From IMG/VR virus record IMGVR_UViG_3300025155_000165, positions 1 through 20,120 of that record: a stretch of DNA of 20,120 bases; one strand, given 5' to 3'. This stretch comes from a virus. A program made the position numbers and the translations under genes. This document shows positions 1 through 18,182 of this stretch, in pieces. The notes under the pieces are model-generated. The model worked only from the letters and a program-made list of their open reading frames with translations. It made no database searches and was not told where the DNA came from. Position 1 is the stretch's first letter, and every line of letters starts with the position of its first letter.

Positions 1-3000
1 TCTCGGCGTAAGCCGCCGAAGCCTTGACCTGTTCCTCAGACAGCCGCATCTGCTCAATCTGGTAAGCCCTCTGAAGCTTGTTCTGCTCCTCCTCCAGCTT
101 CTTACGCTCCTCGAAGAACTGCATCTGTACTTTCAGGGCTTCCTGAGAGAAACGTAACTGCTCCTGCTGTTGCTGTCTCTGTACCCGGAAGCGTTCGTCC
201 TCCAGATCCCACAACTCTCTCTGGCGCTCACGCTGTTTATCGATTTGCTCCCCCTCGATGTCGTGCATGATGGTCTCTCGGCCCATCTGACGCTCGGCCA
301 TCCGGCGATCTCTACCCGTAAGGAACCTGGCCTGTTCGCCAAAGTCCTCCACTTTCCAGCCCCACTGCATGGCCCGAGTGCGATCCTGGGTCTGCCAGTC
401 CTCCATGGACCAGCCCCGCTGCATCTGGGACTGCTGCACGTTGAGACCCATATTCTGTTGGAAGAAACGGTTGCCCATCTCCATCTGTTGGGATTGCTGG
501 CCGAAGTTCCACTGCTGTTGGGCCCAATTCATATTCATGAAGGCGTCCTGGACACCCCAGAAGCCGCCTCCCTGTGACTGGAAGTTTGCCACCCCAGGAA
601 CGTTGAAGCCGAACTTGCCTGTATTGAACCCGAACGGAGAGCCCGTCTGTGGGTTGACAATCCCCGAATACTGGTCAATCCCTACGCCGGTGTTGAAGGC
701 CCGAGAGAGAGCCAACTGCTGTAACTGAATGCCTGCCTGGGCCTGCTGTGCTTTTCTGGCCTCCTGTGCCTGCCATTCCTGCCCTGCAAACTTGCCGCCC
801 TCGATCATCTCCATGATCAGGTCCTGGTTGATGTTGGCGTTACCTCTCCAGTCAGCACCCCAAATGCGGTTTGCCATAGATTGAGATGTGAGCCCTGGCA
901 TTGCAAGAGAGCTCATACCCCATGGCATTCCTGTTACAGTCTGGGTATACTGTCCCCATGGATTAGTCCCTTCCCGGATATCCGTCATGCCCATGTAGGC
1001 AGTGGTCATTTGTGTGCCGCCAATCCCCGGCATGGTCAATGGTAGTTGGGCCATCTGTTCTGGGTTCTGGGTCATGTAGGCTGCAAACTGCAAGGGATTA
1101 CCAGAAGTGACACCTTGAAGCTGTTGGAATGTTCCTTGTGGAAGTTGGGTGAAAGCCTGTGATAACAGATCGGCCTGTCGGGTTGGCATACCACCCCTGC
1201 CTGCAAGGAGGCCGCCCATCTGGGTTGCCCACTGCTGTTGGGACTGGAGCTGGTTGATCTGGCCCATATTCCAGCCTGCATACTGGCTTAGATCAATTGT
1301 TCCCGGAGCCATCCCCAGACCCAGGAAGCCACCCTGGAGTTGCTGGAATGCCTGATATCTCTGTTGATCCTGCATGAGCTGTTGTTGCTGGAGTTGCAGG
1401 TTAGCTGTCGTAGGCTGGCCCTGGAACGCCCCCACCGGAGGGGCTTGCCAGGGGATCCCCATGGTCCGCAGGCCAGCACCCACGTTATAGCGTTGTTGCA
1501 TGAGCCCGAACATCTCTGGGGCGACGCCTGCCAACTGTTGGTAGTATGCCTCCTCTGTGGCCTGTTCTCTAAAGCGGGGAGCGGATGCACCAAGTACGCC
1601 ATACCTTTGAGCGCCTTCCATAAGCAGGGCGGCCTCACCTTCCTCACGCCCACCTTCCTCGGTCCATCTCTGAATGAATTGTCCGGCGATCCTTCTTTGC
1701 TCTCGTTGTGTTCTCCAGGGAGCCGCCCCCATCTGTTGAGCGGCCTGTATCCAGGGAGCTTGCATGGAGACTGCCCCTGCCAGAAACTCGAACTGGCCGC
1801 CAGGCTCCATCCCCAACTGCAAGCCGTATCTTCCGGCCATGATCTCTGCCCCGATTACACCCTCTGCCGGAGCCTGATACCTAGGAGCCTCAGCCGTCCC
1901 ATAACGGGCCATCCATTGGGCCACCTGGTTGCGATCGTAACCCATCCCCTGGAGGACTTCCTGTAAGGACTGCTCTGGGGCAGCTTCCCTGGCCTCCCGA
2001 ATTCTCTGGATCTGGGCTGTGATATCCTGGGCCTCCGGGGTAGACCTCCAGGCTGCTCTTTGGGTGTCAGTAGGAGATGCGAAGAAGTTCGAGAGTGGAC
2101 CAACGATCCCTGCCGCCCAAGAACTTCCCGGTAGGGTCCACCGTCCTCCCGTCAACGGATTGACCCGAGATCTCTGATCCATTGTTGCCTGAAGCTCTTC
2201 TGGAGTAAACCCCCCGGTAAATAGCCTGGAGGCCATCCCTACCCCGGTGATCTCGGGTTGAGCCATGCCGCCCAACATGCTCATGGCTGTCATACCAACG
2301 GGAGCTGCTATTGCGCCTGCGGCACCCAGGGCAACGGCAGCACCTGGAATGGGGATCATACCTCCCATCCATAAACCAGCGCCTCCACCAGCCAGGGCAG
2401 CCTGGAGTAGATTGACGCCCCCTTGAAGCCCTGGCCTTTGGGCAATCTGCGCCTGTGCTGCTCTAAAACCGGCAAATCCAGCCCCGCCATACATGGTCTG
2501 TGCTTGCTGGAGCTGCTGTTCAGGTCCCCAATAAGGCATCCCGCCGCCCATGGCCTGGCCTACTGTCTGGGAGATCATGGCCTGTTGCTCCTGGAAGGGA
2601 GCATAGCCCATCTGAGCGCCACCAGTGGTGATATCCCAGATGCTCCGTAGATACATTAGGCCAAAGCCACCCATGGTCGCCCGAGCCAGCCTGCCGTAAC
2701 CCCGCAGCTCGTCTCCACCGCCTCCCCAACCAGCCGGAGTCGGTCTACCCATCCCAGTCGCCATGGCTCCAACCCTGGCTCTGGCGTAAGCCTGCTGTGA
2801 TGTCTCGTATCTCTCGAGCGCCGTGGCCTGTTCTTCCTTTCCAATACCCATGCCACGGATAGACTCGAATTCTCCTGGAGTAATCAGCCCTGCGGCACCC
2901 TCGGTGGGTAGGCCAAACATCTTGCGCACACCGATAGCCCGGCCCATAAGCTGGGCCTCTGTCTTACCCAACGTTTCCAGCTTTGCCAGCATCCTGTTCG

Positions 3001-6000
3001 GGTCTAGTTCCAGGCCACGCTCAATAGCTTCGTTGAACTCGGTATGCCTGCCCTTGAGGTCTCCCAGGGACTTGACCTGCATGTCCATGGCCTTGGTGGT
3101 TTGTTCCATAAGGCCCAACCAGCGATTAGCCAGGTCTACACCCTGAGTGGTGAGAGGTTGCTCGCCTGCCCTGCCAGCCTTGGTTGCAGAGACGATCTGC
3201 TGTAGAGACTGGAAGCCGGTGAACGTCTCACCGAGGCGAGTGCCTAGTTGAGCACCTCCTGGAATGTTCAACTCTTCCTGGTAACGGGCGGCCTCGGAGC
3301 CTCCTGCGGCCATGGCCTGAACTGCCATTCCCGGAAGACCGGTATCGCCAAGGTCTCTCATTTGAGGAGTGATTGCCTGAGCAAACTTCTGGAACCACCC
3401 AAACTGCTGTAGGGCTCCCTGTAATCTTGGGATGCTCTGTACGCCTCTCCTGAAGTTGATCCCTAGCTGCTGTGCTCTCATGGGGGCTTGGGCAATAGCC
3501 TCCTGTGGAGCCATCCCTGCAATCGCTTCTCGCTGCTCTCCGGTAAACATCTGGGAGAGCATTTGAGGCAACTCCTGGAAGGTCTCCCTGAGTGTACCGC
3601 CCTGAAGTTCACCACCTTCTGTGAACTCCCCAAAATACTTGCCGAACATGGCCTCGGTTGTCTGCCATACAGCCTGCGCCTGTACGGGACTGTACTTCGT
3701 CCTGCGCCCAAAGATCGTGCCCCGACCTCCCCCCGACCCCACCTGTTTTAGAAATGTGTTAGCGAAGTATTGGGCGATCTCGGCCATGTCTGCCTGGCCT
3801 GCCATCTGCCGCCCAACCTGGGAAAATGTCTGTCTCTGTGGCTCCTCTTCCGGCTCTTGCATAGCCTCTGCAACCGGTGTTCCTCCAGTCGGTCCTCCTG
3901 GCCCTCCGGGTGCTCCGGGTTGCGGAACAGGCTGTCCCTGCCTGGGTGCGCCACCTGCCATTCCTGGAATGGGAATGCCCTGTGCCTTCATGTAGCGGCT
4001 CATAAACTGCTCGACTACTTGGGGACTAGTCTGCTCTGGCCCAAGGGTGACCAGGTTACCCATACCCTGCTGGAAGATCTTCTCGCCTACGTTGAATAGG
4101 GCCTTCCTGCGCTCTGCCCCGCCGAACTTAGTTGGATCTGCCCGGATAGCCCCAAACTCTTCTGAGAAGAACCTCTCGGTCACATCTCTATGGACGGGTA
4201 GGATCTTGGCTCCCTGTGCCTTGTGAGTAAGGCGGTAGATACCCATCTGACCGGCATACTCCTCCGGCCTGGTCGTTCCGGTCTTCAAGTCCATGATCGA
4301 GCGTTCGCCGGTCTCGGGGTCTGTGTAAATAAAGTCGGTCTGCCCGGTAACCAGCCCTTCCTTGGTGACTCGCCGCTCGACATCCGAGACGCCTTGCGGT
4401 TGGGCCTGCTGTAAGTAATAAGCCAATGCCTGGTGTGCTCTGGTGCCCTCGATCCTGGGCTCCTGTGCTCCTGTACCAGTGTACCCTTCCGGATAGGACA
4501 GTTCCGAGGCAGTCAAGATACCGATATCCCTGGGATCAAGCTTCTGCCCGGCTGCCTGTTTACGGGCAATCTCTCCGGTCTTGAACTGGCGAATGGGATC
4601 CATCATTTCTAAGACCCGAGCGTAGGGCGTCTCGAACTGTTCCTGAACCTGCTGTGAAGCTCCTACGAGAGCTGTTAGATCTTCTCTCGTCTGGATGGGC
4701 ATGGGCTCGCCTGTGACCGGATGGGCTACTCTTAGAGGGCCTTCTTCTGAAAACCCGGCCAGTCCACCCCAGGTCTTGCGGTAATCACGGACCATTGGTA
4801 GATTGCCAATACCTCTCTGTTCGGCAGAGAGCAGAACTTCCCCAACTCCTTCGACAGTCTTATAGCGTTGCTCTCCCTTGAGGTGTCTGGAGAAATCGAA
4901 CAAGGTAGAGAGCGGCCTGAGCTCCTGCTCCAGTTGCTCGTAAGGAACACGCTCGCCGCCCATCAGAATGCCACCTCTACGAGCGAAACCGGCCATGACA
5001 CCTGCTCGTTTGGTAGGATCTTTGGCTGTGCGTTCAAAGCCTGCGGCCAAAGCCGACATTCCTGCGACTGATCTTGTCCCGATCAGTCCTTGCTCCTCGA
5101 GCCCGGTCATTGCTCGAGCCATAGCCGTGGACCTGGCAGCCGGTGTTCCTTGTACTGCCCTGGCCCCTGTAATAGCCTCAGAGATTTGCGTCCGTCTCTC
5201 CCGGAGCACATCTTCCCCCGCACCTTCCGGGACCTGCATGAGCATACTGGAAACCCAATCGGCAGGCATTTCAGACGTACCAATACCAGCACCGATCCGG
5301 CGCACCAGGGCGCTTACGTCCTCCTCCATTGGGTTCCACATCTGGGTCGAGTAGGAGAACTGGCTCCCTCCAGCCATATTGACACCCCACCGAGCTTCAT
5401 AAGCCCCTGTGTCCTGGAGCTCGGCCTGGAAGCCAGATGTACCCATGATGTTTTCGAAGAAGTTCTGGAATTTATTCTCGAAGTCTAGCCTGGATTGGTA
5501 GCGAGCTTGGCCTATATCCACCATCTCGGTTGCCAATCTCTCGGGTACACCCAGGAAGGAAGCCGCCACAGCCGGACGCCTTCGGAATATGTTATAGGCC
5601 GATCCCATCCCTTTGGTTTTTGTTTCATTCCAGAGCATCCCCTCTGCCTGAAACTCCTGTGTTCCTAGCTGCGCCCGTTTCGCAAATAGACCTTCCCGAA
5701 TATCCTCTATCTCCCCACCGATCTGTTGTTGCAGCAGACGCTCTCCAGATGGCCCCATCATCCGGGCAATGGACGCTTGCATGTTCTGGCCCCAGGGGTT
5801 CATCGAGGCTGCTTGCGCCCCAAAGAGAGCATTGAAGGTCTTTTGCTGTTGGGCCGGCCTCAGGTTCTCCGTTATCTGCCGAAGCCACCCGCTATATTCT
5901 TCGTTGTCTCCTGTCTCTCCGTAGAACCTCTTCCATCCTCCAGATACTCCCTTTCCTGTCCTGATGGCGAGCGGAAGAAGGGTATATGGGTCAAGGTCGA

Positions 6001-9000
6001 TATCACCCAGGTTGGCACCATATATCGAGGACGTGATCAAATCCGGCAGCATCAGCCCGGATCTCTTCATGGCATCTATAATTCTCGGGCCGGTGCGCTT
6101 CATCCTTTCCTTTGGATCTGTAACCCAGGGCTGCTCCGTTGTGATGGATACAGGGTGTATCGAGCCTGGCATTCCTTCAGTACCAATGTTGGGAGCCGGG
6201 TACCTGGTCATGATCCCGGTCGCTCCCTCCATGATCCTTTGATACCTTCTCCACTCGAGGGGGTTTCGTGTCCCGCCCTGCAATAGATAATTACGTCTAA
6301 GTCCTTCAGGCGTCATCACCACCTGGCCCGGAGGTACGGTGGATGTGCCTGCCGCCCGGCTGAAGATGCCGCCCCTTTGCTTGCGGAGCTGGTCTGTGTC
6401 TGTATACTCTCCCTGGAATGACTGAATATTTCTACGCAGGAGCTCATCTGGAATTTCCAGCTCTGCACTTTCCAATAAGCCTCCCATAAACCTGTTGAAC
6501 TTAGTAGCCACCTGCGCCTGTGTCTGAAACTCCATCCCCCCCTCTTCTGTAATCTCAGAGAGCAAGCTCTCGAGCTCTCTATATTGTCCTCCACCAGCCA
6601 TAGCAACTTTGTTCAGCGGGTCCCAATAGATCGGCTCCGGGCCCTCTTGCCTCCCTGTAGCCTCTCTCATGACATTCTCGTAGATGCTCATGAGCTGAGT
6701 TTGACCATAAGGTTCCCCCGCAGTCTCGAGCCTCTGAACCTCTCCCAGTACACCCTCTCGAATTGTCCTTGCTATATCCTTATCTATCGTGGCAAACCGG
6801 CGTAATTCCTGTGGATGGCCCCACTGAGTAGCTTGCCACGCTCGAGTTACGTCTTGAAGGGCAACTCTGGCAGGATTATCGGGAAATAGATTGGCCTCAC
6901 GCTCCTGCATCCATCTGGCTACACCTCCTTGGCCTTGTGCGAGCATCGCCTGAAGGTGCTCGCCCTGAGTGGATCCGACGCCTGCGGCCTCCTGCACTAT
7001 AGTCTTCAGTTGCGTGGAGTACAGAGATTGGGTCGTCATCCAGGACGTATAGAGATTAGTGTCCCTATCGAAGGTGACATTCTTATTGAAGGTCCTCAAA
7101 TACTGTTTGATGTTACTCTGGCCCATCCCCTGTGATTTCAAGTGTTCGACAAGCCCTTCTTTGGCAAGCCGGTAAGTCTCGGGATCATACTGCTCGATAG
7201 GCTGGCGGCCCTTCTCGATAATGCCTGCGCCAAATTTCTGGATCAGCTCCTCCTGGTTCGGGTAGGCTCTCAGGGCATTCGTGACCTGCATGAGCATCTC
7301 GGTACCAGTCTGCGCTCTACCGGATAACTTTCCAACATCCTCCAGGCTGAGAGGAATATTCCCCCTTCGCATTGTGGTCAATGCCTGGAGGACATCTTTA
7401 TCTCCTCGAAAGAGTGTTCCTAGAAACTCATGAGGTCGCTCCATACCCTGAAGGGCAGGTAGCATAAGGGCCTCGATATTCCTGGCGTTTTGCAGGATAT
7501 CGTACTCTCGCATTCCTGTAGCTGTCTGGACAGCCTGCTCGACGCCAACGAGCGATGGGTTCATCTGCCCTTTTGCACTTTGCCCCTTGAATGCCCCCGT
7601 GGTGGCAACCACCTTCATGAGCTCCACGATTGGGTCTTCCCCTGCGCCAAAACTGATCTGCTGGAAGCCTTTCTGGGTCAGGCGTTTCAGCCAGGGCTCG
7701 AGCTGCTCCTGGGTCAAGCCTTCCCGCCATGCCTCGGGCAAGACTGCCTGATAGCCATATATCTGCTCGTACTGGTTTCCAGCCGTATAGGAAAGCCTCT
7801 GGCCTTCAGGGACACCTGTTGTGTAGACCACTCGCTTGCCAGGATCGAGCCTCTTTCCCAACACGCTTGGATCCATCTGGAACTTGGACTCGGCAAAAGT
7901 CTGAAGGTTCTTGGCCTTCACTTCCTGCTGCTCTCTGGCAAACCGGCCTGCCATAAGCATTCCCCCTTGCTCGGTTATATACTCCCTGAGGCCCGGTGGA
8001 AGCTGGGCCTGCATAGCTCCAGATCCCCACGGCAGCTCGCCAATGGAAGTAACCGTTCTCATAGGAATGCCCTGGTAGGGTTGTTCTCCCGACCTTAGAG
8101 TGATAGACGCCTGCCTGAGAAACTCTTGCGGGATCATCGAGAGACGTTGCTGGCCCTCCTGTTCATAGAGCATCATGGGAGTAGCCATTTCCCTGCGCCC
8201 GGCTATGTAGGTTTGCTTATAGGGTTTAGGGGTGAAGACATCTACAGCCGTCTCCCCGCCCCTCTGTGTCAATTCCCCGGAAGCCCAAGGGGTAACGTAC
8301 ACCGCTCCGGTTGTTGTGGAAGGCTCGTGGACGTAACCACCAAACAGCCTAGACCAGATGGAGGAGGGCGAGAGACCCCTAAGGTTGGCCTGCTCTTGTA
8401 GAGCTCCTACTGACTGTTCAAGTGTCCTCGAATAGCGAGCTCGCTGTTGCTCGGGTGTCTCCCCGGCCACTAAGCCAGGCTCCACAATAGGCACGTTGTA
8501 AGTGCCTGCCTGGTGACGAATAGCCTGCGGGTTGGCAACTTCCGTTGGAGAGACATACAGGTTCGAGGCTGGAATGCGCCCTGGAATGTTCTGGCCCTCG
8601 GGTGTCTGGAACGACCCACCCCACGGATGGGCCTGCGTATTGATCCTCCTAAAGAAGTCCATAACGGTATCACGCATGGTGAACCGTTCTGGCGTCTGTC
8701 CTTTTTGCTCTACCCACGAGCCAAAAGCCCCTGAAACCCTCCTGGCAAAGGATTGGATACCGGTGTAGAAAGGTGTCTCTGAGACCCCTTCTCCGATCCC
8801 TGCCACACCAGCCGACCTGAGATCCCCACGCATGAAGTTGTAGCCCTCACCCGTCCGGATCATCAAGGTCTCGTTGGGAGCACCTCTAACTCTCCCGAAC
8901 CAGGCTTGCCCCTCGGCCTGTGGATGAGCGATCTTCACCTCGAACTCATTAGGGACGCTCTCCCAACCGGATTGCTTGTATATTTGAGCCGGGTTGACCT

Positions 9001-9130
9001 GAACGTTCTGCTCGTAACCCTGCCAGCCCAAAGTGCGAAGCTCCCGCAGGAGCAAGTCCCTCAATTCCTGGGGGGACTGGAAGGCGGCGGTCTCTTGTGG
9101 TCTGGAGATGTCGAAGTTCTGGAAGGGCAT
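1..9130 (-). CDS. Giant tape measure-like tail protein with an internal RecB-type nuclease domain (3' end outside window)
   Basis: One frame is open from ATG 9130 to the window edge: 3,043 codons and no stop seen on reading it through. It starts one base after the stop of the frameshifted tail chaperone, the usual place of the tape measure gene, which sets tail length and helps DNA entry. Layout: residues 1-1540 unrecognised; about 1540-1650 a PD-(D/E)XK nuclease with G1562-T-x-x-H1566, G1596-x-x-D1599, D1614-x-K1616-TG and Q1628-x-x-x-Y1632; about 1715-1765 a Pro/Gly linker with an acidic tail; about 2241-2290 an Ala/Gly-rich hydrophobic stretch able to cross a membrane; about 2550-2900 rich in Gln, Met, Gly and Trp; 2906-2941 two 18-residue GWxxED repeats; about 2950-3043 a charged Gln/Glu/Arg coiled coil. 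No strong Shine-Dalgarno is seen (AAGAG), so start by translational coupling is likely. The tape measure role rests on position and composition; the nuclease on motifs. The C-terminus is missing. Confidence 0.85.
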   Translation of the reverse strand, partial: MPFQNFDISRPQETAAFQSPQELRDLLLRELRTLGWQGYEQNVQVNPAQIYKQSGWESVPNEFEVKIAHPQAEGQAWFGRVRGAPNETLMIRTGEGYNFMRGDLRSAGVAGIGEGVSETPFYTGIQSFARRVSGAFGSWVEQKGQTPERFTMRDTVMDFFRRINTQAHPWGGSFQTPEGQNIPGRIPASNLYVSPTEVANPQAIRHQAGTYNVPIVEPGLVAGETPEQQRARYSRTLEQSVGALQEQANLRGLSPSSIWSRLFGGYVHEPSTTTGAVYVTPWASGELTQRGGETAVDVFTPKPYKQTYIAGRREMATPMMLYEQEGQQRLSMIPQEFLRQASITLRSGEQPYQGIPMRTVTSIGELPWGSGAMQAQLPPGLREYITEQGGMLMAGRFAREQQEVKAKNLQTFAESKFQMDPSVLGKRLDPGKRVVYTTGVPEGQRLSYTAGNQYEQIYGYQAVLPEAWREGLTQEQLEPWLKRLTQKGFQQISFGAGEDPIVELMKVVATTGAFKGQSAKGQMNPSLVGVEQAVQTATGMREYDILQNARNIEALMLPALQGMERPHEFLGTLFRGDKDVLQALTTMRRGNIPLSLEDVGKLSGRAQTGTEMLMQVTNALRAYPNQEELIQKFGAGIIEKGRQPIEQYDPETYRLAKEGLVEHLKSQGMGQSNIKQYLRTFNKNVTFDRDTNLYTSWMTTQSLYSTQLKTIVQEAAGVGSTQGEHLQAMLAQGQGGVARWMQEREANLFPDNPARVALQDVTRAWQATQWGHPQELRRFATIDKDIARTIREGVLGEVQRLETAGEPYGQTQLMSIYENVMREATGRQEGPEPIYWDPLNKVAMAGGGQYRELESLLSEITEEGGMEFQTQAQVATKFNRFMGGLLESAELEIPDELLRRNIQSFQGEYTDTDQLRKQRGGIFSRAAGTSTVPPGQVVMTPEGLRRNYLLQGGTRNPLEWRRYQRIMEGATGIMTRYPAPNIGTEGMPGSIHPVSITTEQPWVTDPKERMKRTGPRIIDAMKRSGLMLPDLITSSIYGANLGDIDLDPYTLLPLAIRTGKGVSGGWKRFYGETGDNEEYSGWLRQITENLRPAQQQKTFNALFGAQAASMNPWGQNMQASIARMMGPSGERLLQQQIGGEIEDIREGLFAKRAQLGTQEFQAEGMLWNETKTKGMGSAYNIFRRRPAVAASFLGVPERLATEMVDIGQARYQSRLDFENKFQNFFENIMGTSGFQAELQDTGAYEARWGVNMAGGSQFSYSTQMWNPMEEDVSALVRRIGAGIGTSEMPADWVSSMLMQVPEGAGEDVLRERRTQISEAITGARAVQGTPAARSTAMARAMTGLEEQGLIGTRSVAGMSALAAGFERTAKDPTKRAGVMAGFARRGGILMGGERVPYEQLEQELRPLSTLFDFSRHLKGEQRYKTVEGVGEVLLSAEQRGIGNLPMVRDYRKTWGGLAGFSEEGPLRVAHPVTGEPMPIQTREDLTALVGASQQVQEQFETPYARVLEMMDPIRQFKTGEIARKQAAGQKLDPRDIGILTASELSYPEGYTGTGAQEPRIEGTRAHQALAYYLQQAQPQGVSDVERRVTKEGLVTGQTDFIYTDPETGERSIMDLKTGTTRPEEYAGQMGIYRLTHKAQGAKILPVHRDVTERFFSEEFGAIRADPTKFGGAERRKALFNVGEKIFQQGMGNLVTLGPEQTSPQVVEQFMSRYMKAQGIPIPGMAGGAPRQGQPVPQPGAPGGPGGPTGGTPVAEAMQEPEEEPQRQTFSQVGRQMAGQADMAEIAQYFANTFLKQVGSGGGRGTIFGRRTKYSPVQAQAVWQTTEAMFGKYFGEFTEGGELQGGTLRETFQELPQMLSQMFTGEQREAIAGMAPQEAIAQAPMRAQQLGINFRRGVQSIPRLQGALQQFGWFQKFAQAITPQMRDLGDTGLPGMAVQAMAAGGSEAARYQEELNIPGGAQLGTRLGETFTGFQSLQQIVSATKAGRAGEQPLTTQGVDLANRWLGLMEQTTKAMDMQVKSLGDLKGRHTEFNEAIERGLELDPNRMLAKLETLGKTEAQLMGRAIGVRKMFGLPTEGAAGLITPGEFESIRGMGIGKEEQATALERYETSQQAYARARVGAMATGMGRPTPAGWGGGGDELRGYGRLARATMGGFGLMYLRSIWDITTGGAQMGYAPFQEQQAMISQTVGQAMGGGMPYWGPEQQLQQAQTMYGGAGFAGFRAAQAQIAQRPGLQGGVNLLQAALAGGGAGLWMGGMIPIPGAAVALGAAGAIAAPVGMTAMSMLGGMAQPEITGVGMASRLFTGGFTPEELQATMDQRSRVNPLTGGRWTLPGSSWAAGIVGPLSNFFASPTDTQRAAWRSTPEAQDITAQIQRIREAREAAPEQSLQEVLQGMGYDRNQVAQWMARYGTAEAPRYQAPAEGVIGAEIMAGRYGLQLGMEPGGQFEFLAGAVSMQAPWIQAAQQMGAAPWRTQREQRRIAGQFIQRWTEEGGREEGEAALLMEGAQRYGVLGASAPRFREQATEEAYYQQLAGVAPEMFGLMQQRYNVGAGLRTMGIPWQAPPVGAFQGQPTTANLQLQQQQLMQDQQRYQAFQQLQGGFLGLGMAPGTIDLSQYAGWNMGQINQLQSQQQWATQMGGLLAGRGGMPTRQADLLSQAFTQLPQGTFQQLQGVTSGNPLQFAAYMTQNPEQMAQLPLTMPGIGGTQMTTAYMGMTDIREGTNPWGQYTQTVTGMPWGMSSLAMPGLTSQSMANRIWGADWRGNANINQDLIMEMIEGGKFAGQEWQAQEARKAQQAQAGIQLQQLALSRAFNTGVGIDQYSGIVNPQTGSPFGFNTGKFGFNVPGVANFQSQGGGFWGVQDAFMNMNWAQQQWNFGQQSQQMEMGNRFFQQNMGLNVQQSQMQRGWSMEDWQTQDRTRAMQWGWKVEDFGEQARFLTGRDRRMAERQMGRETIMHDIEGEQIDKQRERQRELWDLEDERFRVQRQQQQEQLRFSQEALKVQMQFFEERKKLEEEQNKLQRAYQIEQMRLSEEQVKASAAYAE
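4180..4520 (-). other. PD-(D/E)XK (RecB/Cas4-like, PDDEXK_1 type) nuclease domain inside the giant tail protein
   Basis: This stretch encodes about residues 1537-1650 of the giant protein. The motif order and spacing match RecB/Cas4-like exonucleases: GTRAH (H1566, first metal ligand), then GQTDF (D1599), then a strand ending MDLKTG (D1614, K1616), then a helix with QMGIY (Q1628, Y1632). Fifteen residues separate the two aspartates, in the normal range. The four motifs and all catalytic residues are intact, so an active metal-dependent nuclease is expected. No Cys cluster for an iron-sulfur site of the Cas4/AddB type is seen nearby. The domain borders are approximate. A degenerate, structural-only use cannot be excluded from sequence. 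Confidence 0.8.
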
Positions 9131-9131
9131 G

Positions 9132-9413
9132 TCAGACTCTTTTGTCTTGCTGTTTCTGGATGGCGGTAAAGATGTTGCGGATATCGGCGCACCGCTTCAT
9201 TTCCATCATCAGGATATAGGGCTGGTCCAGAAAACCTCCTCCAAAGGGTAGCGCCCTAAACTCCTCCCTTTGCTCCAGGTAGATAAGCGCCTGGGGCTTC
9301 TCCGGGATAATGGCACTTAGCCCTAGCCTGATCTCATTCTGTGCACCGAAGTAATTCATCAGGGTCTCTTCCAGCTCATGCAGGAGCTTCTCTAATTCAT
9401 ACTCCCCAAAGGG
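9132..9413 (-). CDS. Tail assembly chaperone, -1 frame extension (gpT-like part of a gpG-gpGT system)
   Basis: This frame has no ATG or ribosome-binding site of its own at the proper place; it is joined to the upstream chaperone by a -1 slip at 9413-9407. The slip would give a 238-residue fusion: 147 residues from the upstream frame, then 91 from this one. The encoded part has a Leu/Glu-rich helix followed by a segment with PFGGG and LDQPY, and an Arg/Lys/Gln-rich C-terminus. In lambda-like phages, the short G and long GT products coat the tape measure protein and recruit tail tube subunits, and are absent from the virion. The stop TGA at 9134-9132 lies one base before the ATG of the giant tail gene. 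A TTG at 9422 could be called as a start, but the slip explains the frame better. Confidence 0.8.
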   Translation of the reverse strand, partial: PFGEYELEKLLHELEETLMNYFGAQNEIRLGLSAIIPEKPQALIYLEQREEFRALPFGGGFLDQPYILMMEMKRCADIRNIFTAIQKQQDKRV

Positions 9414-9847
9414 CCTGCCCAACTCAGGTTCACCTCCAGGACTTTCTCGTGAATCTCGTCGGCCACGTCATCCGGAAGCGATCCCCAGGCTATCTTGAAC
9501 TGGTTATCGGTCATATCCAGTTCGACATGCCCATTAGTGGACTTGAACCTGAAAAGCTGGTTTCCGTCTATGTCCAGGATATTGGACCCGATCAGGGAGA
9601 GCTGCACTTCGATACGCTTGAGTTCCTCGATCGACCAACTTTGCTGAAGACGGAGCTCTTGCGAGAGAGCTGAACGCTGGTTGACGATCTGGGTGACCTC
9701 CGAATGAATGAGCGACCGGCGCTCCTTCTGAGCCTGAGTAGCCTGCCGAATGGTGATCTTGGTAGGTCCACCCTCGTTGTCGTAGGCTAAGTCTGTACGT
9801 TCCAGGACAAAATCTTTCTCAATGGGTGCGATTAGTTTTAGCGGCAT
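9392..9847 (-). CDS. Tail assembly chaperone (gpG-like), 151 residues
   Basis: The start is ATG 9847, preceded by AAGGAG with six bases between. Starts further upstream in this frame would run into the preceding gene and lack a ribosome-binding site. The protein is mixed alpha/beta: a beta-rich N-terminus, a charged helical middle (Gln, Arg, Glu) and an acidic C-terminal half. It has no catalytic motif. I assign it by position (after the tail tube gene, before the tape measure) and by the slippery site close to its 3' end, which is the hallmark of the lambda G/GT pair. It would act in the cytoplasm during tail assembly together with the frameshifted product. Sequence similarity alone does not identify it. 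Confidence 0.75.
   Translation of the reverse strand: MPLKLIAPIEKDFVLERTDLAYDNEGGPTKITIRQATQAQKERRSLIHSEVTQIVNQRSALSQELRLQQSWSIEELKRIEVQLSLIGSNILDIDGNQLFRFKSTNGHVELDMTDNQFKIAWGSLPDDVADEIHEKVLEVNLSWAGPLGSMN
9407..9413 (-). other. Programmed -1 ribosomal frameshift site, CCCTTTG
   Basis: Read on the minus strand, the heptamer is C CCT TTG in the frame of the upstream chaperone, so it has the X XXY YYZ form (CCC, TTT, G). After a -1 slip the codons are CCC TTT GGG GAG, exactly the frame of the downstream chaperone part. The zero-frame TAG stop is 13 bases beyond the site (9394-9392). A downstream stimulating structure was not established. Confidence 0.75.
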
Positions 9848-9857
9848 TTCATACTCC

Positions 9858-10130
9858 TTACGCCTTCTCGATCCAATGCCATGTTCCGGGTTCCTTCTTC
9901 TCGGAATAAAGGATACTGGTACACCAGGCAATCCCTTTCTCAAAGCCAAACGGGAGGTGTTCATTGTGATAATGGTCGTTCTGCCCGTCTGTGAAGACTT
10001 GCAGATTACACATTCCATTCTCCGGCGGTTGCCCATCGGCAGTCCTCCAAACCTTTACAACGATAGCCGGACGGTGTTCTGTTTCGTCCAGCGCATAGTG
10101 AACAATACGGCCTTCGGTCAATCCTTCCAT
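9858..10130 (-). CDS. Conserved phage protein of unknown function, 90 residues
   Basis: I choose ATG 10130 because GGAGG lies eight bases upstream; a TTG 15 bases earlier (10145) is less likely. The protein opens with a segment reading GRIVHY, then RPAIVVKVW, NLQVFTDG and a Trp-rich end with PGTWHW. This pattern recalls a small family of uncharacterised phage proteins found among structural and morphogenesis genes; the recall is from memory and not a search. It looks like a compact beta-barrel with no membrane segment. It starts one base after the stop of the small membrane protein gene and is followed ten bases later by the chaperone gene, so it is translated within the tail operon. Its role is not known. 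Confidence 0.8.
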   Translation of the reverse strand: MEGLTEGRIVHYALDETEHRPAIVVKVWRTADGQPPENGMCNLQVFTDGQNDHYHNEHLPFGFEKGIAWCTSILYSEKKEPGTWHWIEKA

Positions 10131-10346: not shown

Positions 10347-11441
10347 TTATGGGCTAGGCCAGTTGTAGTCGGGCCACTGGTTGCGGAGCTCTACCGTACA
10401 GTATTCTCCAGCAACGTCCAGGGCCTGCCCGGTGAAGTTCATCAGAACGGCGTCATTCCCGGCCAGGGTGATCCCACCCTGGAGGGCGAGCATAACTTCT
10501 GTCCCCGTAAAGATAATCTCGTAAGGCTGAGACTCACCCGGCATGTTGGCCGGGGAGAGCGTCCGGAAGGTGATTGGAGTGGTAAAAGGCACCGAGCTCC
10601 ATTCCGTTCCAGACAGGCTCCCGGTCAAGATCTGCCGGTAGAGGCCGGGGTTCTTCCACTTTACGGTCAAGGCCACCTGAAGACCTCGGGTGATGATGGT
10701 CACGTCCTCCAGGAATGGAGAGCCGTAGACCTTCTCCTGCCGGATGTCCAGGTTCTGGTTGTTCATAGTGAACTGAGCCTGAACGACCGGTAGTGTACCG
10801 AAGCTTGGGGTGTTGATATACCCACCCGGCGTGGAGCCGATTGGGATCGAAGGGAAGTCCTCGAAGTCGCCGCCAGCTGCGTTCCAGCCGCCCGTCGAGC
10901 CGGAGGTCGAATACCAGTCAGGATCCTCCTCCAGTTCGAACAGCCGACCGATCGCATCTACTCGAGCGGCCACGAGGCCCATGTTCGGTAAAGTCAGGCC
11001 AAAATTGATGAGCTTGCAGTCCTTGTAGATCTCACCTAAGACGTAATCGCCAACATCACCACTGGTCGGGATTGCTTTCCTGAAGCCCATCCAGGGCACG
11101 AGGCCCGGATTAGAGGGATCCAGTTTGAAAACGTGGTTGTACACGCCTCCCGATCCGGAAGTGGTGTCGCAGAAGCCGAAAGCGCCTTTCAGCAAGTAGC
11201 CGATCGAGGCCTCCAACCGGGGATGGATGGTCAGGCCACCGCCCACCATGACCCCTGCTTTATAGGGGATGGTGGGAAGCGGACGGCCACCCACTTCCGG
11301 TGGGCCGAGCCTCTGGTCGTCAAGGATAGCCAGGTCACCAAGCGTTGCCTTATGCCTGAACCACGAGCCAGCAGGAACGTCGATCTCTTTACCGGCCTGC
11401 GGTCCAAAGCCCAAAATACCTGCTTGGGCAACAATCGCCAT
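10347..11441 (-). CDS. Major tail tube protein, 364 residues
   Basis: Start ATG 11441 has AGGAGA six bases upstream. The protein is rich in Gly, Pro, Thr and Ser and in predicted beta strands, with few charged clusters, as in polymerising tube proteins. It fits the large tail-tube type seen in phages with a two-domain tube subunit: the N-terminal half (about 1-200) with GVYNHVFKLDP and MGFRKAIP segments, and a C-terminal half (about 215-364) with NNQNLDIRQEK and FTGQALD. Position between the neck genes and the chaperones supports the call. Subunits would stack as rings around the tape measure to form the tail. Motif evidence is modest; gene order carries most of the weight. Confidence 0.75.
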   Translation of the reverse strand: MAIVAQAGILGFGPQAGKEIDVPAGSWFRHKATLGDLAILDDQRLGPPEVGGRPLPTIPYKAGVMVGGGLTIHPRLEASIGYLLKGAFGFCDTTSGSGGVYNHVFKLDPSNPGLVPWMGFRKAIPTSGDVGDYVLGEIYKDCKLINFGLTLPNMGLVAARVDAIGRLFELEEDPDWYSTSGSTGGWNAAGGDFEDFPSIPIGSTPGGYINTPSFGTLPVVQAQFTMNNQNLDIRQEKVYGSPFLEDVTIITRGLQVALTVKWKNPGLYRQILTGSLSGTEWSSVPFTTPITFRTLSPANMPGESQPYEIIFTGTEVMLALQGGITLAGNDAVLMNFTGQALDVAGEYCTVELRNQWPDYNWPSP

Positions 11442-11456
11442 GGTGTTTCTCCTATG

Positions 11457-11996
11457 TCACGGTCGATGAGTGAGGGCTTGCCAGGCCACCTCACCTCTCC
11501 AGATGTACTGCGCTGGAGGGCCTCCACCTTCGAAGAAGGTAGAGTGGGGAACCCAGAGGTAGTAGGCTCGTTCGCCCCATTCATCCACTAAATCAGCAAC
11601 ATTCGTTTGTTCGATGTGATAAGTCGCTCTCCCCAGGAAGTTATGAGCGTGCCTGGCCGCTACGTCCTGCTTGAAACTCTTCAGGATGTAGTAGCAACCA
11701 AGGCTTACCCTACCACGACGCCACCAGTAGTGGCCGCCGCCGATCTCGCCAGCAGGAAGGTTTAGCCCTAGATCCTCCATTTGGGCGGCAGTCACCCTGC
11801 CGTCCCGATAGTCAGGATCGTTGGGATTGCCTGCGCTCACCCATGCGAAGTTGACCGGGTTGAGCGGGTTATCCTGAAAGCGGTATGCCTGAACTTCCCC
11901 GGCCCTGGAAGGGTCGCTCGAGGAGACCTTACTGATCAGCTCCTGCGAGAGCTTCTCGACCAGGCGGGTAACGATCAGGTCTGAGATCTGGCTCAC
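11457..11996 (-). CDS. Neck or tail terminator protein, 179 residues
   Basis: The start is GTG 11996, sharing GTGA with the stop of the preceding adaptor gene; AAAGGTGG just upstream can serve as ribosome-binding site. The N-terminus is a helix (ISDLIVTRLVEKLSQEL), followed by a beta-rich part with many Trp and Tyr residues (GGHYWWRRGR, RAYYLWVPH). No enzyme motif is seen. Lying between the adaptor and the tail tube genes, it should be a head-tail joining part: either the head-closure/neck protein or the tail terminator that caps the tube. Only two genes fill this interval, so one of the usual connector roles may be merged or absent. Sequence alone does not decide. Confidence 0.65.
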   Translation of the reverse strand: MSQISDLIVTRLVEKLSQELISKVSSSDPSRAGEVQAYRFQDNPLNPVNFAWVSAGNPNDPDYRDGRVTAAQMEDLGLNLPAGEIGGGHYWWRRGRVSLGCYYILKSFKQDVAARHAHNFLGRATYHIEQTNVADLVDEWGERAYYLWVPHSTFFEGGGPPAQYIWRGEVAWQALTHRP

Positions 11997-12634
11997 TGGC
12001 CCACCTTTACGTAAGGCGGCATCATCTTCATCTCCTGGTAAAACAGGTGCCGGTAGACCTCTGCCTGCACTTTCAAGGGATTGTGCTCCGGTGTGCCACT
12101 ATCGACCCGAATGTTGAACTGCCGGATGTTAGCCGAGTTCGAGCTCTTGGCGAGCAGACATTGGGAGGCAGCGTACAGCTGCATACCGATAGAAGCAGCC
12201 AGGGGCACCTCGATCACGAAGGTGAGGTCCGTTTCCGAGGCCGGTTTGTTCCAGTAGGCGAAGTAGTAGATCTTCAGTTCATCTCCCTCATCGAGAGGGG
12301 CAGACAGGCTCAAGTATCCCTGTGGATACTCGCTCCAATCATTGTCGTCCTGCGCTATAGAACGCACAGTTAGAGGGGCCAAGGTCGCCTTGGGGATGAA
12401 CCTCCCCGTCTCTACTACCTGGATGGACTGGACGGAGTACAGGTTGCTCGGGAGAGCGAACGAGTCCCCGTCCGATCCGGAGGTGAGTGTCACCATGGAG
12501 AACTTGGGGATATACGGCATCACGGCCTCGTGAGCTCCGCAGACACCATCCCAGACCAGTTCCTCGCCATAGATCGCCCCATCCGGATCGTCCAGCAGGC
12601 GTAGCACTTTCAGGGAGAATTCACTGTAGTTCAT
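11993..12634 (-). CDS. Head-tail adaptor protein, 213 residues
   Basis: The start ATG 12634 overlaps the capsid gene's stop by one base (TAATG), and the stop overlaps the next gene by four bases, so translation is tightly coupled. The protein begins with a helix carrying LLDDPDG, has a middle with beta strands (FALPSNLYSVQSIQVVE, LKIYYFAYW), and a helical C-terminal half (ASIGMQLYAASQCLLAK, then Gln/Arg/Met-rich). This mix of helical bundle plus small beta sheet, the FALPSNL-type segment and the position directly after the major capsid gene fit adaptor proteins that dock under the portal. Assignment is by fold pattern and gene order. Confidence 0.65.
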   Translation of the reverse strand: MNYSEFSLKVLRLLDDPDGAIYGEELVWDGVCGAHEAVMPYIPKFSMVTLTSGSDGDSFALPSNLYSVQSIQVVETGRFIPKATLAPLTVRSIAQDDNDWSEYPQGYLSLSAPLDEGDELKIYYFAYWNKPASETDLTFVIEVPLAASIGMQLYAASQCLLAKSSNSANIRQFNIRVDSGTPEHNPLKVQAEVYRHLFYQEMKMMPPYVKVGQ

Positions 12635-14010
12635 TACTGTACGACCGTTGGGCCCTTTACCCGAGTGGAGCCAGCAGAGAACACGACCTCGAAGATCTCA
12701 GGCCGGTAAGGTTGATAGCCCATGTACTGGTCGAACGAGAACCGGAAGATGGCCTTGAAGTCATCGATCGGGTCCAGTTCGTAGAACTGAGGCTGCTGAG
12801 CCACGCCAGCCACGATTGCCTGAGGCCCACCCACAAAGATCGTGGCGTGGATATTTCGGGCTTTCGTAACATAGGCGTAGACACCGCCGCCCAGGTCTGT
12901 TGCAAAGTCAACCAGGACAGGCTGGTCCAGAACCAGGCGAGAGTTGATAGCATCGACCGCAACGATCCGGCGATTGGTCAGCTTGCCTTCGTTGAAGTTC
13001 ACCCCATTCGTCACGCCATAGGCGTTGGTCACAGTGGCGTGGAGGGTGATGACATCGTTCACCTCAAAGTCACCGATTGAGCCCGAGGTGACGCTGCCGA
13101 GCTGGAGGTAGTGGGTGATCCCAGACGAGTCCTGGCCGGTCAGGTATGTACCATCAACCTTCACGCCAGTAGCCGGAGCCGGGGAGCCATCGCCAGCCGT
13201 GACAGCCGCCGAGACGGTTGCCCGAGCGATGACCGCACCACAGTTCCACAGGTTGCACTTGGGGGTCTGGACGTAGCGAACGTTCTTGTACGCACCGACC
13301 TCGTAGCGCATCCGGGCCCGGTCTTGCATGTATTCCTGCATGGTGATCCAGTCATCCGCACCCTGGATGTCATAAATGACGCCGGGGGAGGTGTAGGCCA
13401 CGATGGAGCCTTCGGCACCCGTAGGACCAAGAGCTTCAGCGATGCCACGGTTCGCCATGCCGAGCCAGATATCTGCGCCCACGTCGGGATCGTACTTATC
13501 CCCGGTGGTCAAGGTGTTGAAGTTGGTTGCACTCCCCATATAGAGGGAGTAGCCCGTATTCTGAGCGCCCTGGATAAGGGCGTTACGGGCCAGGAGGTCA
13601 TTCATATCGACTTCGGCTTGCCCTAAGGCTCCCCGAGCGATCCTCCGCAAGCCTGCCTGACGGTTCTTCTTCCAGTAGGTAATGTACTCGTCATACTTAT
13701 GGAAGGCAATCTTGCCGCCGTTGTGCTGGAACTCGATCTCGATGTTCCGAGAGTCGATGTGCATACTTGGCATCCAAATCTGCCGGGCCGCCAGCGGGGT
13801 CGTATCCGCATGGGGGTCCAAAAGTTGCGAGACTACCATCTTGGCAGCCCGAACGTCGAGCAGGGAGCGGGTGAAGGTCAATACCGGACGAAAGACCGAT
13901 CGCAGCCTCCACATATCGATGAGGTCTGGATCGAGCCACGTTCTTTGGTTCTTATCCATAACCGAGAACGGCTCGTCGCTATAATAGGTATCGAAATCAC
14001 CTACGGCCAT
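12634..14010 (-). CDS. Major capsid protein, 458 residues
   Basis: Start ATG 14010 has AGGAGA seven bases upstream, a strong site fitting high expression. The protein directly follows the scaffold gene, as is usual. It looks like an HK97-fold shell protein: residues 85-115 (IEIEFQHNGGK, FHKYDEYITYW) resemble an extended arm and spine helix, 200-250 an axial-domain core, and the C-terminal 380-450 a beta strand region ending in a conserved-looking EVVFSAGSTRVKG. Residues about 268-370 are a Thr/Val/Gly-rich beta segment that may be an inserted surface domain. It could belong to the N4-gp56-like capsid group, but I am not sure. No protease gene lies in the cluster, so maturation without cleavage is possible. 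Confidence 0.8.
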   Translation of the reverse strand: MAVGDFDTYYSDEPFSVMDKNQRTWLDPDLIDMWRLRSVFRPVLTFTRSLLDVRAAKMVVSQLLDPHADTTPLAARQIWMPSMHIDSRNIEIEFQHNGGKIAFHKYDEYITYWKKNRQAGLRRIARGALGQAEVDMNDLLARNALIQGAQNTGYSLYMGSATNFNTLTTGDKYDPDVGADIWLGMANRGIAEALGPTGAEGSIVAYTSPGVIYDIQGADDWITMQEYMQDRARMRYEVGAYKNVRYVQTPKCNLWNCGAVIARATVSAAVTAGDGSPAPATGVKVDGTYLTGQDSSGITHYLQLGSVTSGSIGDFEVNDVITLHATVTNAYGVTNGVNFNEGKLTNRRIVAVDAINSRLVLDQPVLVDFATDLGGGVYAYVTKARNIHATIFVGGPQAIVAGVAQQPQFYELDPIDDFKAIFRFSFDQYMGYQPYRPEIFEVVFSAGSTRVKGPTVVQ

Positions 14011-14711: not shown

Positions 14712-16307
14712 TTACTCCTGATTTGCTTCTCTAGCCGGGGTGCCCTTTTGGGCCTCCTGGCTCGATCCTGGAATACCTCGCTCTTTGGCCTGACCCTCCG
14801 GCTGCGGAGGCGTCAGTAGTTTCTGGAGCTCTTTCAGATCCTTGAGGATCTTGTCCCTTTCCTCCGAGGGGTTATCCACGCCCAGGGTGTCCAGCAACCT
14901 TTCGATGGAGCCTAACTTACCGGCCATGAGGGTTGCGGCTTCCTGGACCAGGAGTTCCCGGTCTCTCGGTAGGACAGGTGCCCATTCGTGCCTGATGGGG
15001 TAGAGCAGGTGTTCAGGTTTTACGGCTACATTCTTGATATCCAGTACGTCTGGCGGGGTCATGAGCAGCATCTTGACTGCCATGCGGGTGAGCAGGTTCA
15101 GGCCGGTAGACCAGAAGATCCGCTCGCTGTCGGTGTGTGAAACCAAAGAGATCATGCGAGTCACTAAAGTAGCCGCCGATCTCTGAGATCCTTCGTCTTC
15201 CCCATCGGCAATCCCCGGAACGGAAACCAGGCGTCTATAGATTGCCAGGAGAGCCTCCCCAAGCTTCTGCATGGGATCGGAGGCCCGGTTGGTGCCGACC
15301 TCTTCCAGGTCAGGCTCTTTCTCGTTGCCGGTGATGTAGGGGTTGGAGTGCAGGTTGATAGCATAAAGCCCAGGGGCGATCTGCTGGACCGTGGGCGTCC
15401 CGGAGACGTTCTTCATCTTCATGTAGCGGTGAGCGTCCGTGGTAACCGCATCGCCGTAGTCTGCCAGGCGCAAGTTCATTTCTCGGATGACCCCCTGGAC
15501 GTTCTCTATAAAGGTCTCCCCGTAGAAGCCATAAACCCGAATGTGGGGAATATAGACCTGTGGAACGAAGCCGTATCTATTCTCTCGGGTCAACCACTGT
15601 TCGTTGCGGCGAGCCGGCTCCCCATTGATAGTTACTTCGATCCCGTCATCCGTAGTATGCTCGATCATCCAGGGCTGGATGTTCTCATCCAGGAGCACAC
15701 CATGTTCGGCTGCCTCCCGGTGGTTGATGGCCCGGATGATCCAGGTCTCTCGCATACGCCAGAAATCAGCCCCGTCCGGGATACCGATAAAGGATTTAGG
15801 ATGAATGCTCTCAATGCGAAGGGGGATCGTTCTTAGAGGATCCTTGGGGGTGTAGACCAACCGGAAGATGTTGCCGCCGTAGAGCTGGCTTTGGGCTCCA
15901 TTTTGCCACTGGATAGCCCTGCCGTTGGACTCTGACCACAAGCGGTAGAGAATGTCCTCTAAATCCTTGGCCGATTTGATCTGTCCTTCGTTGGTGGTAT
16001 CGGGAGGATTGACTTTCGGGTAGACCAGTGGGCGTTCATCATGGCGCACCTGTCCAAAAAGGTAATAGGTGTGCTGTTCTACTGTCCTGGGGAGCGGGTT
16101 GTACTTGACCGGATAGAGCTCGATCTCTTTCCCTTGTCGCTCGACCGTCTCGTCTAGGGCCTCACCTGAATACCAGCTCTCCAGTCGGGTATAACGAGAC
16201 ATATTCCGGTTGTACTCAGAATAGGGAAAGTTCTCCAGATCCTGGAGACTGAATTCTGGTCTTGGCCGAACCAGATTTTCAAAAAACTCTTGAATTTGAG
16301 GTAGCAA
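14712..16307 (-). CDS. Portal protein, about 531 residues
   Basis: The protein matches SPP1 gp6-like portals in length and layout: N-terminal segment with SRYTRLESWYSGE, a wing region with NPLPRTVEQHTYYLFGQ, a stem and clip in the middle, a long crown-type helix near residues 380-420, and a Lys/Glu/Gln-rich disordered C-terminus with PPQPEGQAK. Twelve subunits form the ring through which DNA is packed. The start is uncertain: TTG 16307 is the first usable codon after an in-frame TGA; no ATG or GTG lies in between, and the next ATG is 35 codons on. GGATGGGG a few bases upstream is a weak ribosome-binding site and lies partly in a leader hairpin. The gene heads the structural transcription unit. 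Confidence 0.85.
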   Translation of the reverse strand: MLPQIQEFFENLVRPRPEFSLQDLENFPYSEYNRNMSRYTRLESWYSGEALDETVERQGKEIELYPVKYNPLPRTVEQHTYYLFGQVRHDERPLVYPKVNPPDTTNEGQIKSAKDLEDILYRLWSESNGRAIQWQNGAQSQLYGGNIFRLVYTPKDPLRTIPLRIESIHPKSFIGIPDGADFWRMRETWIIRAINHREAAEHGVLLDENIQPWMIEHTTDDGIEVTINGEPARRNEQWLTRENRYGFVPQVYIPHIRVYGFYGETFIENVQGVIREMNLRLADYGDAVTTDAHRYMKMKNVSGTPTVQQIAPGLYAINLHSNPYITGNEKEPDLEEVGTNRASDPMQKLGEALLAIYRRLVSVPGIADGEDEGSQRSAATLVTRMISLVSHTDSERIFWSTGLNLLTRMAVKMLLMTPPDVLDIKNVAVKPEHLLYPIRHEWAPVLPRDRELLVQEAATLMAGKLGSIERLLDTLGVDNPSEERDKILKDLKELQKLLTPPQPEGQAKERGIPGSSQEAQKGTPAREANQE

Positions 16308-16508: not shown

Positions 16509-18182
16509 TCAAGCACGTAGGGTTGATCGTATACTTCGCTCCTCTCCAGCCAGGCGTACCATTCGGTCAGCATCTGGATCAAGAAGCTCAAGATCCTGAT
16601 CAGCCTTCTGCGAGCTCTGGTCTTCAGGATCGAAATAAAAGAGTTGCCTCGCTGCGAAAGCAGACATACAGAACATCGAAACGATGTCCTGAGTAAGTTT
16701 AGCTTTTGCAACGCCAGTGTCTTTAGCGGGATCATAATTAGTCAATTGGCTCCTTATTCCTCTAACCATCCTGGGCCAGCTCATCAAGCTTGCCTCCAAG
16801 TATAACCGGCATGCAATCAAGTAAGCGGACTTCTTTCCGGAAGAGAAGTCCATCGGCATGATGTAGAGATTAGTAACCTTGGACACATCGACCCCACCAA
16901 GCCACTCATCTCTGCGGGTGTCCTCGAACCTCTTTCCTTGCAAGAACAGGTTCAGAAGCTCGTTAGTGTTCTTCTGAGGACCGGTAGCATCCACTCCGGT
17001 AAAGGCCGGATCATAGGCGGCCATGAAGGTCAAGAGCTGCCGGATGAAAGGTGTAATCGATTTGTTTCCGGCTCCCCACCAGAAAGCGGCCATAGACATC
17101 TTATTTTTGGGGAAGTCGGTCACGTCCCAAACCCCCAGAACGGGGGCATTGCGATTGGGGGCATTATCGATCCCAGGATCACCTAGCAGGATATAGTTAT
17201 GGCCTTCCCCTCTAGGAATTCTATAATAGACGATCCCCGCCCCTGGGGATTTGGATATCTCGAAGCCTGGATAGCCTTTCTGGACGCCCTCGATGATATG
17301 CCCGTCGAAGTTCTCGTCTTCGCAGGCAGCAACCTTGATCGTTGAAAAGTAAAGTCCCTTGCCTTGCGGCCTGGTGCCCTCGATATGCTGTTCGTGTTCG
17401 TCTTCAGGGATGTCTTTCAGCCACAATTGGAGCTGCTTAGGCGTGACGTTCTTATTGGCCCTGGAAGAGACCGTAATCGAGAGATAGTCTTCAGGATTGT
17501 CTTGAGAGAGATCATAGCGATACCACAGCTCGGGATCATCCCAGGAGTTGGAGGTCATACTCATCCGGGCCAGGCGCTCTCTGCCGTTGATGGTGCCACG
17601 CATACGGGTACCCAGGTTGGTAATCGTGCCGCTCAGGTCATCCAGTTTTCCGGCCTCATCGATATTTACCCAATCGCCTTCCCAGGAAAGGATGTTATTG
17701 CCATTCTTCTCGGCTGACATAAACTCCATGGTGGTGACCATGAGGTAGCTGCCGACGTAGAAGCGGAACTCGATATTTGGATAGGGACTTTTGGGGGCGT
17801 TCCAGATCAGGTCTCCGAGGCGGGTATCCCGGCCCAACTCATCCTTGATGAACTTATACATGATCTCCGACTGCCAGGCAACCGGAGCCGCATTCATGAA
17901 TTTGAAGTCCTTGGTAGTCAGGCAGAAGGGGATCGCACCAGCCCCGACGCCCTTGGTCTTTCCGGAGCCGAAGCCACCAATAACCACGATACGCTGTTGA
18001 GTGGCCTTACAGACCATGACTTGCCACTTCCCCCAATCCTCGAAGTTATCATCCAGGCGAAAACCATGGTCTTGGCCGGGTTTGCGGGTGAAATAGTCGA
18101 GGATGAGATTAGGATCCTCCACCCCCCTCCTCAAGATCTCAATCTCATCCTCGGTGAGCCGAGCGATCGTTTTACGGGGCAT
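16509..18182 (-). CDS. terL: Terminase large subunit, 557 residues
   Basis: This is the packaging motor. The ATPase part has a Walker A GGFGSGKT (residues 69-76), a Walker B ending in D175-E176 (WVNIDEA), and a coupling-type SMTSNSW motif (208-214). The nuclease part, of RNase H fold, shows three likely metal-binding aspartates: D335 (LLGDPG), D398 (TGVDATG) and D499 (LTQDIVSMF). Length is usual for the family, and both parts look intact. The start ATG 18182 directly follows the stop of a 47-residue gene (TAAATG), with only a weak AAGAAG upstream, so translation is probably coupled. No typical small terminase gene was recognised upstream. Confidence 0.93.
   Translation of the reverse strand: MPRKTIARLTEDEIEILRRGVEDPNLILDYFTRKPGQDHGFRLDDNFEDWGKWQVMVCKATQQRIVVIGGFGSGKTKGVGAGAIPFCLTTKDFKFMNAAPVAWQSEIMYKFIKDELGRDTRLGDLIWNAPKSPYPNIEFRFYVGSYLMVTTMEFMSAEKNGNNILSWEGDWVNIDEAGKLDDLSGTITNLGTRMRGTINGRERLARMSMTSNSWDDPELWYRYDLSQDNPEDYLSITVSSRANKNVTPKQLQLWLKDIPEDEHEQHIEGTRPQGKGLYFSTIKVAACEDENFDGHIIEGVQKGYPGFEISKSPGAGIVYYRIPRGEGHNYILLGDPGIDNAPNRNAPVLGVWDVTDFPKNKMSMAAFWWGAGNKSITPFIRQLLTFMAAYDPAFTGVDATGPQKNTNELLNLFLQGKRFEDTRRDEWLGGVDVSKVTNLYIMPMDFSSGKKSAYLIACRLYLEASLMSWPRMVRGIRSQLTNYDPAKDTGVAKAKLTQDIVSMFCMSAFAARQLFYFDPEDQSSQKADQDLELLDPDADRMVRLAGEERSIRSTLRA

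Follow-up and report, generated by a model that had tools for sequence, protein, structure and literature searches.

What would a DNA nuclease be doing in the middle of a phage tail protein? Annotations commonly treat tape measure proteins (TMPs) as rulers, at most with the ability to cut peptidoglycan. The question is raised by a viral record of 20,120 bases, IMGVR_UViG_3300025155_000165, which was analyzed over its whole length and is referred to below as the window. The original prediction, made from this DNA, described a RecB/Cas4-type nuclease built into a giant tape measure-like protein. All window features described here are encoded on the minus strand.

The giant frame very likely encodes a tape measure protein

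The main genes of the window were found in the order terminase, portal, a scaffold-like gene, major capsid protein (MCP), adaptor, neck, tail tube, chaperone pair, and giant protein. The terminase large subunit (TerL; 16509-18182), portal protein (14712-16307), MCP (12634-14010), and tail tube-like protein (10347-11441) match phrog_2, phrog_64, phrog_1357, and phrog_290, respectively, and the adaptor-like protein (11993-12634) and neck-region protein (11457-11996) are conserved in the phage family. The gpG-like first chaperone frame (9392-10036) and the gpGT-like second frame (9132-9422) overlap in a -1 relation. The slippery heptamer C CCT TTG (9407-9413) lies in this overlap, in register near the end of the first frame, and is identical in the relative G004. 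A gpG/gpGT gene pair precedes the TMP genes of siphophages.

The giant frame (2-9130) is the long gene immediately 3' of this chaperone pair with its -1 slippery site. Counted from its first ATG, it is 3,043 codons long and has no stop codon, as it is cut by the end of the record. Because it lies directly downstream of a gpG/gpGT-type pair, the giant protein is very probably a TMP. Six relatives that have the giant gene also have orthologues of the terminase, portal, capsid, adaptor, neck, tube, and first chaperone frame, and this synteny, together with the chaperone pair upstream, bears out the placement of the nuclease in a tape measure-like protein. No TMP family profile in Pfam or PHROGs matched the giant protein, so the assignment stands on position, length, and neighbours. 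TMPs are frequently too divergent for profile matches, and the missing match weakens the assignment only a little.

Several further features were identified in the protein. Residues 1716-1785 (3776-3985), after the nuclease, form a Pro/Gly-rich linker. Hydropathy analysis found one hydrophobic stretch, residues 2258-2276 (2303-2359), which may be a membrane segment; many relatives have none above the threshold. The C-terminal segment (2-574) is rich in Gln and charged residues and is conserved in all TMPs of the family, with 44-61% identity.

Searches with TerL, MCP, and TMP found no relative among named phages, and a host search with the TMP tail and MCP, which covered 84,980 species by a single genome per species, found none either. 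Matches between the N-terminal part and Arthrobacter TMPs (E 0.7 or worse; Arthrobacter TMP of ~775 aa) were dropped as chance.

A RecB/PDDEXK_1-type nuclease domain is very likely present in the middle of the protein

Residues 1540-1670 (~4121-4513) contain the complete motif set GxxxH ... GxxD ... DxK ... QxxxY in the correct order and spacing. The motifs are GTRAH (residues 1562-1566, with H1566; 4433-4447), GQTDF (residues 1596-1600, with D1599; 4331-4345), the D-x-K motif DLK (D1614 and K1616; 4283-4291) within MDLKTG (residues 1613-1618), and the QxxxY motif QMGIY (residues 1628-1632, with Q1628 and Y1632; 4235-4249). The original prediction had named these four motifs and six residues, and all were found in frame 2-9130 exactly where it had placed them. 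It had also described the frame as open for more than 1,500 codons on each side of the domain. This holds for the upstream side, where ~1,540 codons precede the domain, but downstream ~1,410 follow before the record ends.

We then compared the segment with known families. A profile search, which had been proposed as a check, matched PF12705 (PDDEXK_1) with 25.8 bits, over the curated cut-off of 22 (E 1.2e-5). When the whole protein was scanned against PHROGs, the matches were exonucleases only (phrog_466, E 4e-4). A Pfam scan of the whole protein found no nuclease match, presumably because the signal was diluted over 3,043 residues. When the middle segments of 14 TMPs were compared with Pfam, PDDEXK_1 was the sole family to reach E 0.1 or better, and three segments matched it. 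The motif set, written as a loose regular expression, matched 6 of 3,000 shuffles of the window protein. Searches of 203 named phages gave weak matches (E 0.8 or worse), not significant alone, in genes mostly annotated as exonuclease. In the PDB, two UvrD/Rep-type helicase chains were weakly matched (E 1.6) near their C-terminal ends, and viral contigs searched with the nuclease segments returned known family members only, or nothing. The segment was also modelled with AlphaFold, at low confidence (mean pLDDT of 51 with 3 sequences and 42 with 8); the order of elements in the second model is consistent with a PD-(D/E)XK core, and Foldseek searches with these low-confidence models matched no nuclease.

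Taken from motifs and profiles, a RecB/PDDEXK_1-type nuclease domain inside the TMP can be assigned with high confidence, and the domain is probably catalytically active. The RecB side of the original RecB/Cas4 description was thus retained, while the Cas4 side was not: the window protein has no cysteine in its 3,043 residues and therefore could not hold the four-cysteine Fe-S cluster of Cas4 in the strict sense. The cysteine count in the other nine nuclease-bearing TMPs ranges from 0 to 4. RecB or AddB proper was also ruled out, as no helicase family was found in the window TMP with Pfam or PHROGs.

The nuclease is an optional module in a family of related TMPs

To gather relatives, we searched with the capsid protein and the TMP C-terminus. 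The resulting set comprises 19 distinct TMP frames including the window, 2,392-3,841 residues long with some cut by contig ends; the near-copies L041, L053, and L056 were left out. The PD-(D/E)XK motif set was found in 10 of the 19, at the same place (residues ~1480-1770). The nuclease described in the window is not a one-off insertion.

The nuclease exists in at least two divergent versions. The first, GxxxH...G..D...DxK...QxxxY, occurs in the window, L038, and L036 (also G004), all of which keep the six motif residues. The second, GxxxE...PD...(D/E)xK, occurs in L045 (also G006), L047 (also G005), L046, L042, L037, L034, and L055. Free loss of the motif residues in related phages would have spoken against the domain; instead, D...(D/E)xK is intact in all ten carriers, in TMPs that are mostly 12-25% identical in the nuclease region. 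Three of the ten carrier segments (window, L038, and L045) pass the PF12705 cut-off, and the other seven were called by eye from their motifs and with family profiles for which the same sequences had served as input. The profile made for the second version scored the window and L038 above shuffles, but not L036. The latter was recognized from its motifs and because it aligns with the window along almost the entire TMP.

The remaining nine TMPs have no clear nuclease. Eight of them have no clear domain at this place, and the ninth, L057 (3809-10984, plus strand), has SF2 helicase-like motifs (GWGKT, DEFQ, TGGTL, GLGID, QRAMR) in mid-protein, at residues ~830-1150. It matches PF00271 at E 0.019, below the cut-off. 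A divergent nuclease may have been overlooked among the non-carriers, for example in L052. Residues ~1590-1800 of this TMP and its copy L053 read GTIMEARLG...TEDF...FEELK and look like a divergent or decaying nuclease; the profile score fell inside the shuffles and the segment was counted as none.

In a tree of the C-terminal segments, the carriers are mixed with non-carriers instead of clustering together, indicating that the module was gained or lost more than once. The carrier L037, for instance, groups with the non-carriers L052 and L054 (support 100/99), and close relatives differ in the presence of the nuclease. The related records searched, many of them fragmentary, yielded no PF12705 gene standing on its own.

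Two relatives of ~80-83 kb, G017 (L060 to L064) and G024 (L070 to L074), have end repeats. Their first 40 bases recur ~3 kb (G017) and 0.13 kb (G024) before the record end, and because of these repeats both are probably complete genomes. G017, of ~80 kb, encodes a DnaB-like helicase, an endolysin, and a 478-residue protein (L063, 15133-16569, minus strand) that matches phrog_32703 over its full length and DNA methyltransferase families N-terminally.

The N-terminal half carries a signature of a two-barrel RNA polymerase

The N-terminal half, whose signature the original prediction had passed over, is probably not just tape. Residues 1 to ~1450 (4781-9130) contain an R-x-P (R976 and P978; 6197-6205) followed by DIDLD (D1043, D1045, and D1047; 5990-6004), which reads as the DxDxD metal-binding signature of a two-barrel RNA polymerase. 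In cellular beta-prime subunits, an R-x-P is likewise found upstream of DxDGD. We found DxDxD at residues 957-1296 in 18 of the 19 TMPs, where shuffling expects 0.61 of 18; these 18 are related sequences and not independent events, and are mostly 12-23% identical to the window in that segment. When the 18 were aligned, R-x-P and D-x-D-x-D were the sole invariant residues around the motif, spaced 48-67 residues apart, and a G precedes DxDxD in 17 of them.

The distribution of the signature differs from that of the nuclease. DxDxD is kept in all eight TMPs that have neither nuclease nor helicase motifs, and L057, the sole TMP with helicase-like motifs, is also the sole one lacking DxDxD here. 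The two features are separable. Profile comparisons of the N-terminal half with gp96 of Thermus phage P23-45, the PDB, Pfam, and PHROGs gave no link to an RNA polymerase, so the reading as a virion RNA polymerase (vRNAP) depends on the signature. No invariant lysine column for the second barrel was seen in the TMP alignment, which is poor there. A pattern scan of the ORFs of G017 and G024 found no second gene with a clear DxDxD polymerase signature. We infer from the signature that the N-terminal half likely holds a vRNAP, so that the nuclease would sit between the vRNAP and the tape part.

Possible delivery and target of the nuclease

A TMP is ejected together with the genome and has a part in moving it across the envelope; that of lambda has been captured at the inner membrane in the course of injection (PMC10770324; PMC13190303). 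By analogy, the nuclease likely enters the cell, most plausibly delivered together with the genome. Leaving the target aside, we consider it reasonably probable that a vRNAP-nuclease-TMP fusion is delivered in this way. The siphophage TMP would then double as an enzyme carrier with the layout vRNAP, nuclease, linker, and tape measure. From known TMP biology, it would be expected to lie threaded inside the tail tube, to leave together with the genome, and to help build the entry channel. The vRNAP and nuclease would reach the cell tethered at the entry pore, ahead of phage gene expression, and RNA synthesis and DNA cutting would begin at the pore during genome entry. On balance, and with somewhat less assurance, we favour a description of the TMP as a multi-enzyme entry machine composed of a two-barrel vRNAP, an exchangeable DNA-processing module, a flexible linker, and a tape and pore part. 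The exchangeable module would comprise two or more PD-(D/E)XK versions and, in one case, a helicase-like version.

The least certain step is what the nuclease would cut. As an optional cargo of the TMP, it may make an early cut in DNA other than that of the phage, be it the host chromosome, a plasmid, rival DNA, or DNA bound in a defence complex. We tentatively favour host or foreign DNA as the target because the module is optional and comes in more than one version, a patchy pattern more to be expected of an arms-race accessory than of an obligate step.

The nuclease could instead act on the genome of the phage itself, trimming or resecting the leading end beside the vRNAP at the entry pore, which would help the vRNAP to load or make the ends fit for recombination or circularization. 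This use is favoured by kinship to phage exonucleases, a class often used in recombination and the one matched in PHROGs, and by the neighbour in the chain, a probable polymerase acting on incoming DNA. The helicase-like motifs that replace the nuclease in L057 would also suit work on DNA ends. However, nearly half of the TMPs (9 of 19) have no clear nuclease and the related records hold no stand-alone gene, so that end processing would either be dispensable or fall to another factor. We regard this use as rather unlikely, though it competes with the first.

The module could also be a relic that has lost its catalytic activity, or serve as a structural spacer, giving the TMP no more than extra length or a fold. 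It has been gained and lost across the family, and TMPs tolerate insertions and deletions, as seen in TM4 (PMC1796659). Against this, D...(D/E)xK has persisted in every one of the ten carriers, strongly divergent as they are, and the window, L038, and L036 keep all six motif residues, which makes a dead module improbable. A motif set arising by chance, or a chimeric assembly, is very improbable: while the whole-protein Pfam scan was empty, single E-values are modest, and the structure models are of low confidence, the motif set is rare in shuffles, PDDEXK_1 stood alone among the Pfam matches of the 14 middle segments, and the module recurs at one position in contigs that were assembled separately, which argues against a chimera. 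An intein or homing element as the source of the nuclease, suggested by its position in mid-frame and its presence in some relatives and absence in others, was discarded as scarcely credible, since all ten carriers lack an HN-C/S/T junction and any cysteine at residues 1300-2000, and PDDEXK_1/RecB is, to our knowledge, not a usual type of homing nuclease. Whatever probability these readings leave falls to other uses of the domain.

Comparison with known systems

The closest precedent is Thermus phage P23-45, a siphophage of ~84 kb in which an intracellular enzyme likewise rides on the TMP. Its TMP of 5,002 residues, gp96, has a functional N-terminal RNA polymerase that was found by its DxDxD motif and demonstrated by assay and crystal structure; according to the authors, gp96 has no profile similarity to known RNA polymerases apart from the DFDGD motif (PMC10770324). 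Like the window protein, gp96 is a giant TMP with R-x-P...DxDxD in its N-terminal part. The two differ in several respects. In gp96, RNP lies 38 residues before DFDGD, compared with 48-67 in the family described here. The activity and structure of gp96 have been proved, whereas the family described here shows the signature. gp96 has a metallopeptidase domain and its paper does not mention nucleases (PMC10770324), while the window TMP has a nuclease domain. Between P23-45 and the window, the structural genes have at best a very distant relationship (TerL E 0.04, tube E 0.009).

Some crAss-like phages have a PDDEXK domain in a giant protein of the transcription block, where a PD-(D/E)XK domain is associated with a DxDxD RNA polymerase (PMC7886860). 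A similar association is proposed here for the window TMP. The giant crAss-like proteins are not described as TMPs. Motif 3 of the TM4 Tmp is a peptidoglycan hydrolase domain inside a mycobacteriophage TMP. It resembles the nuclease in being a dispensable enzymatic domain found in some relatives only, and differs in acting on the cell wall and not on DNA (PMC1796659). Phage recombination exonucleases (phrog_466, phrog_1870, PF12705) share the motif set and profile with the window domain, but they are separate proteins that, as far as known, lie outside the virion. Polyvalent proteins are similarly large, multi-domain, and delivered with phage or plasmid DNA in host conflicts; the terms tape measure, RecB, and REase are absent from the text that describes them (PMC5512222).

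A literature search, with most subscription journals and all preprints outside its scope, turned up no earlier description of a nuclease domain within a TMP. Enzymes on TMPs are already known from P23-45 gp96 and TM4, and the new element here would be the fusion of vRNAP, nuclease, and TMP.

Implications

The family consists of uncultivated siphophages, yet its domains could be expressed on their own. If the proposed reading is true, the vRNAP of P23-45 would no longer be a single oddity of a hot-spring phage but a pattern shared with another phage group whose relationship to it is very distant at best. The PDDEXK domains reported for giant transcription proteins of some crAss-like phages (PMC7886860) suggest that nuclease and RNA polymerase activities may belong together. 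With a nuclease and probably an RNA polymerase inside the TMP, the tail tube would bring in enzymes that work within the cell ahead of all phage gene expression.
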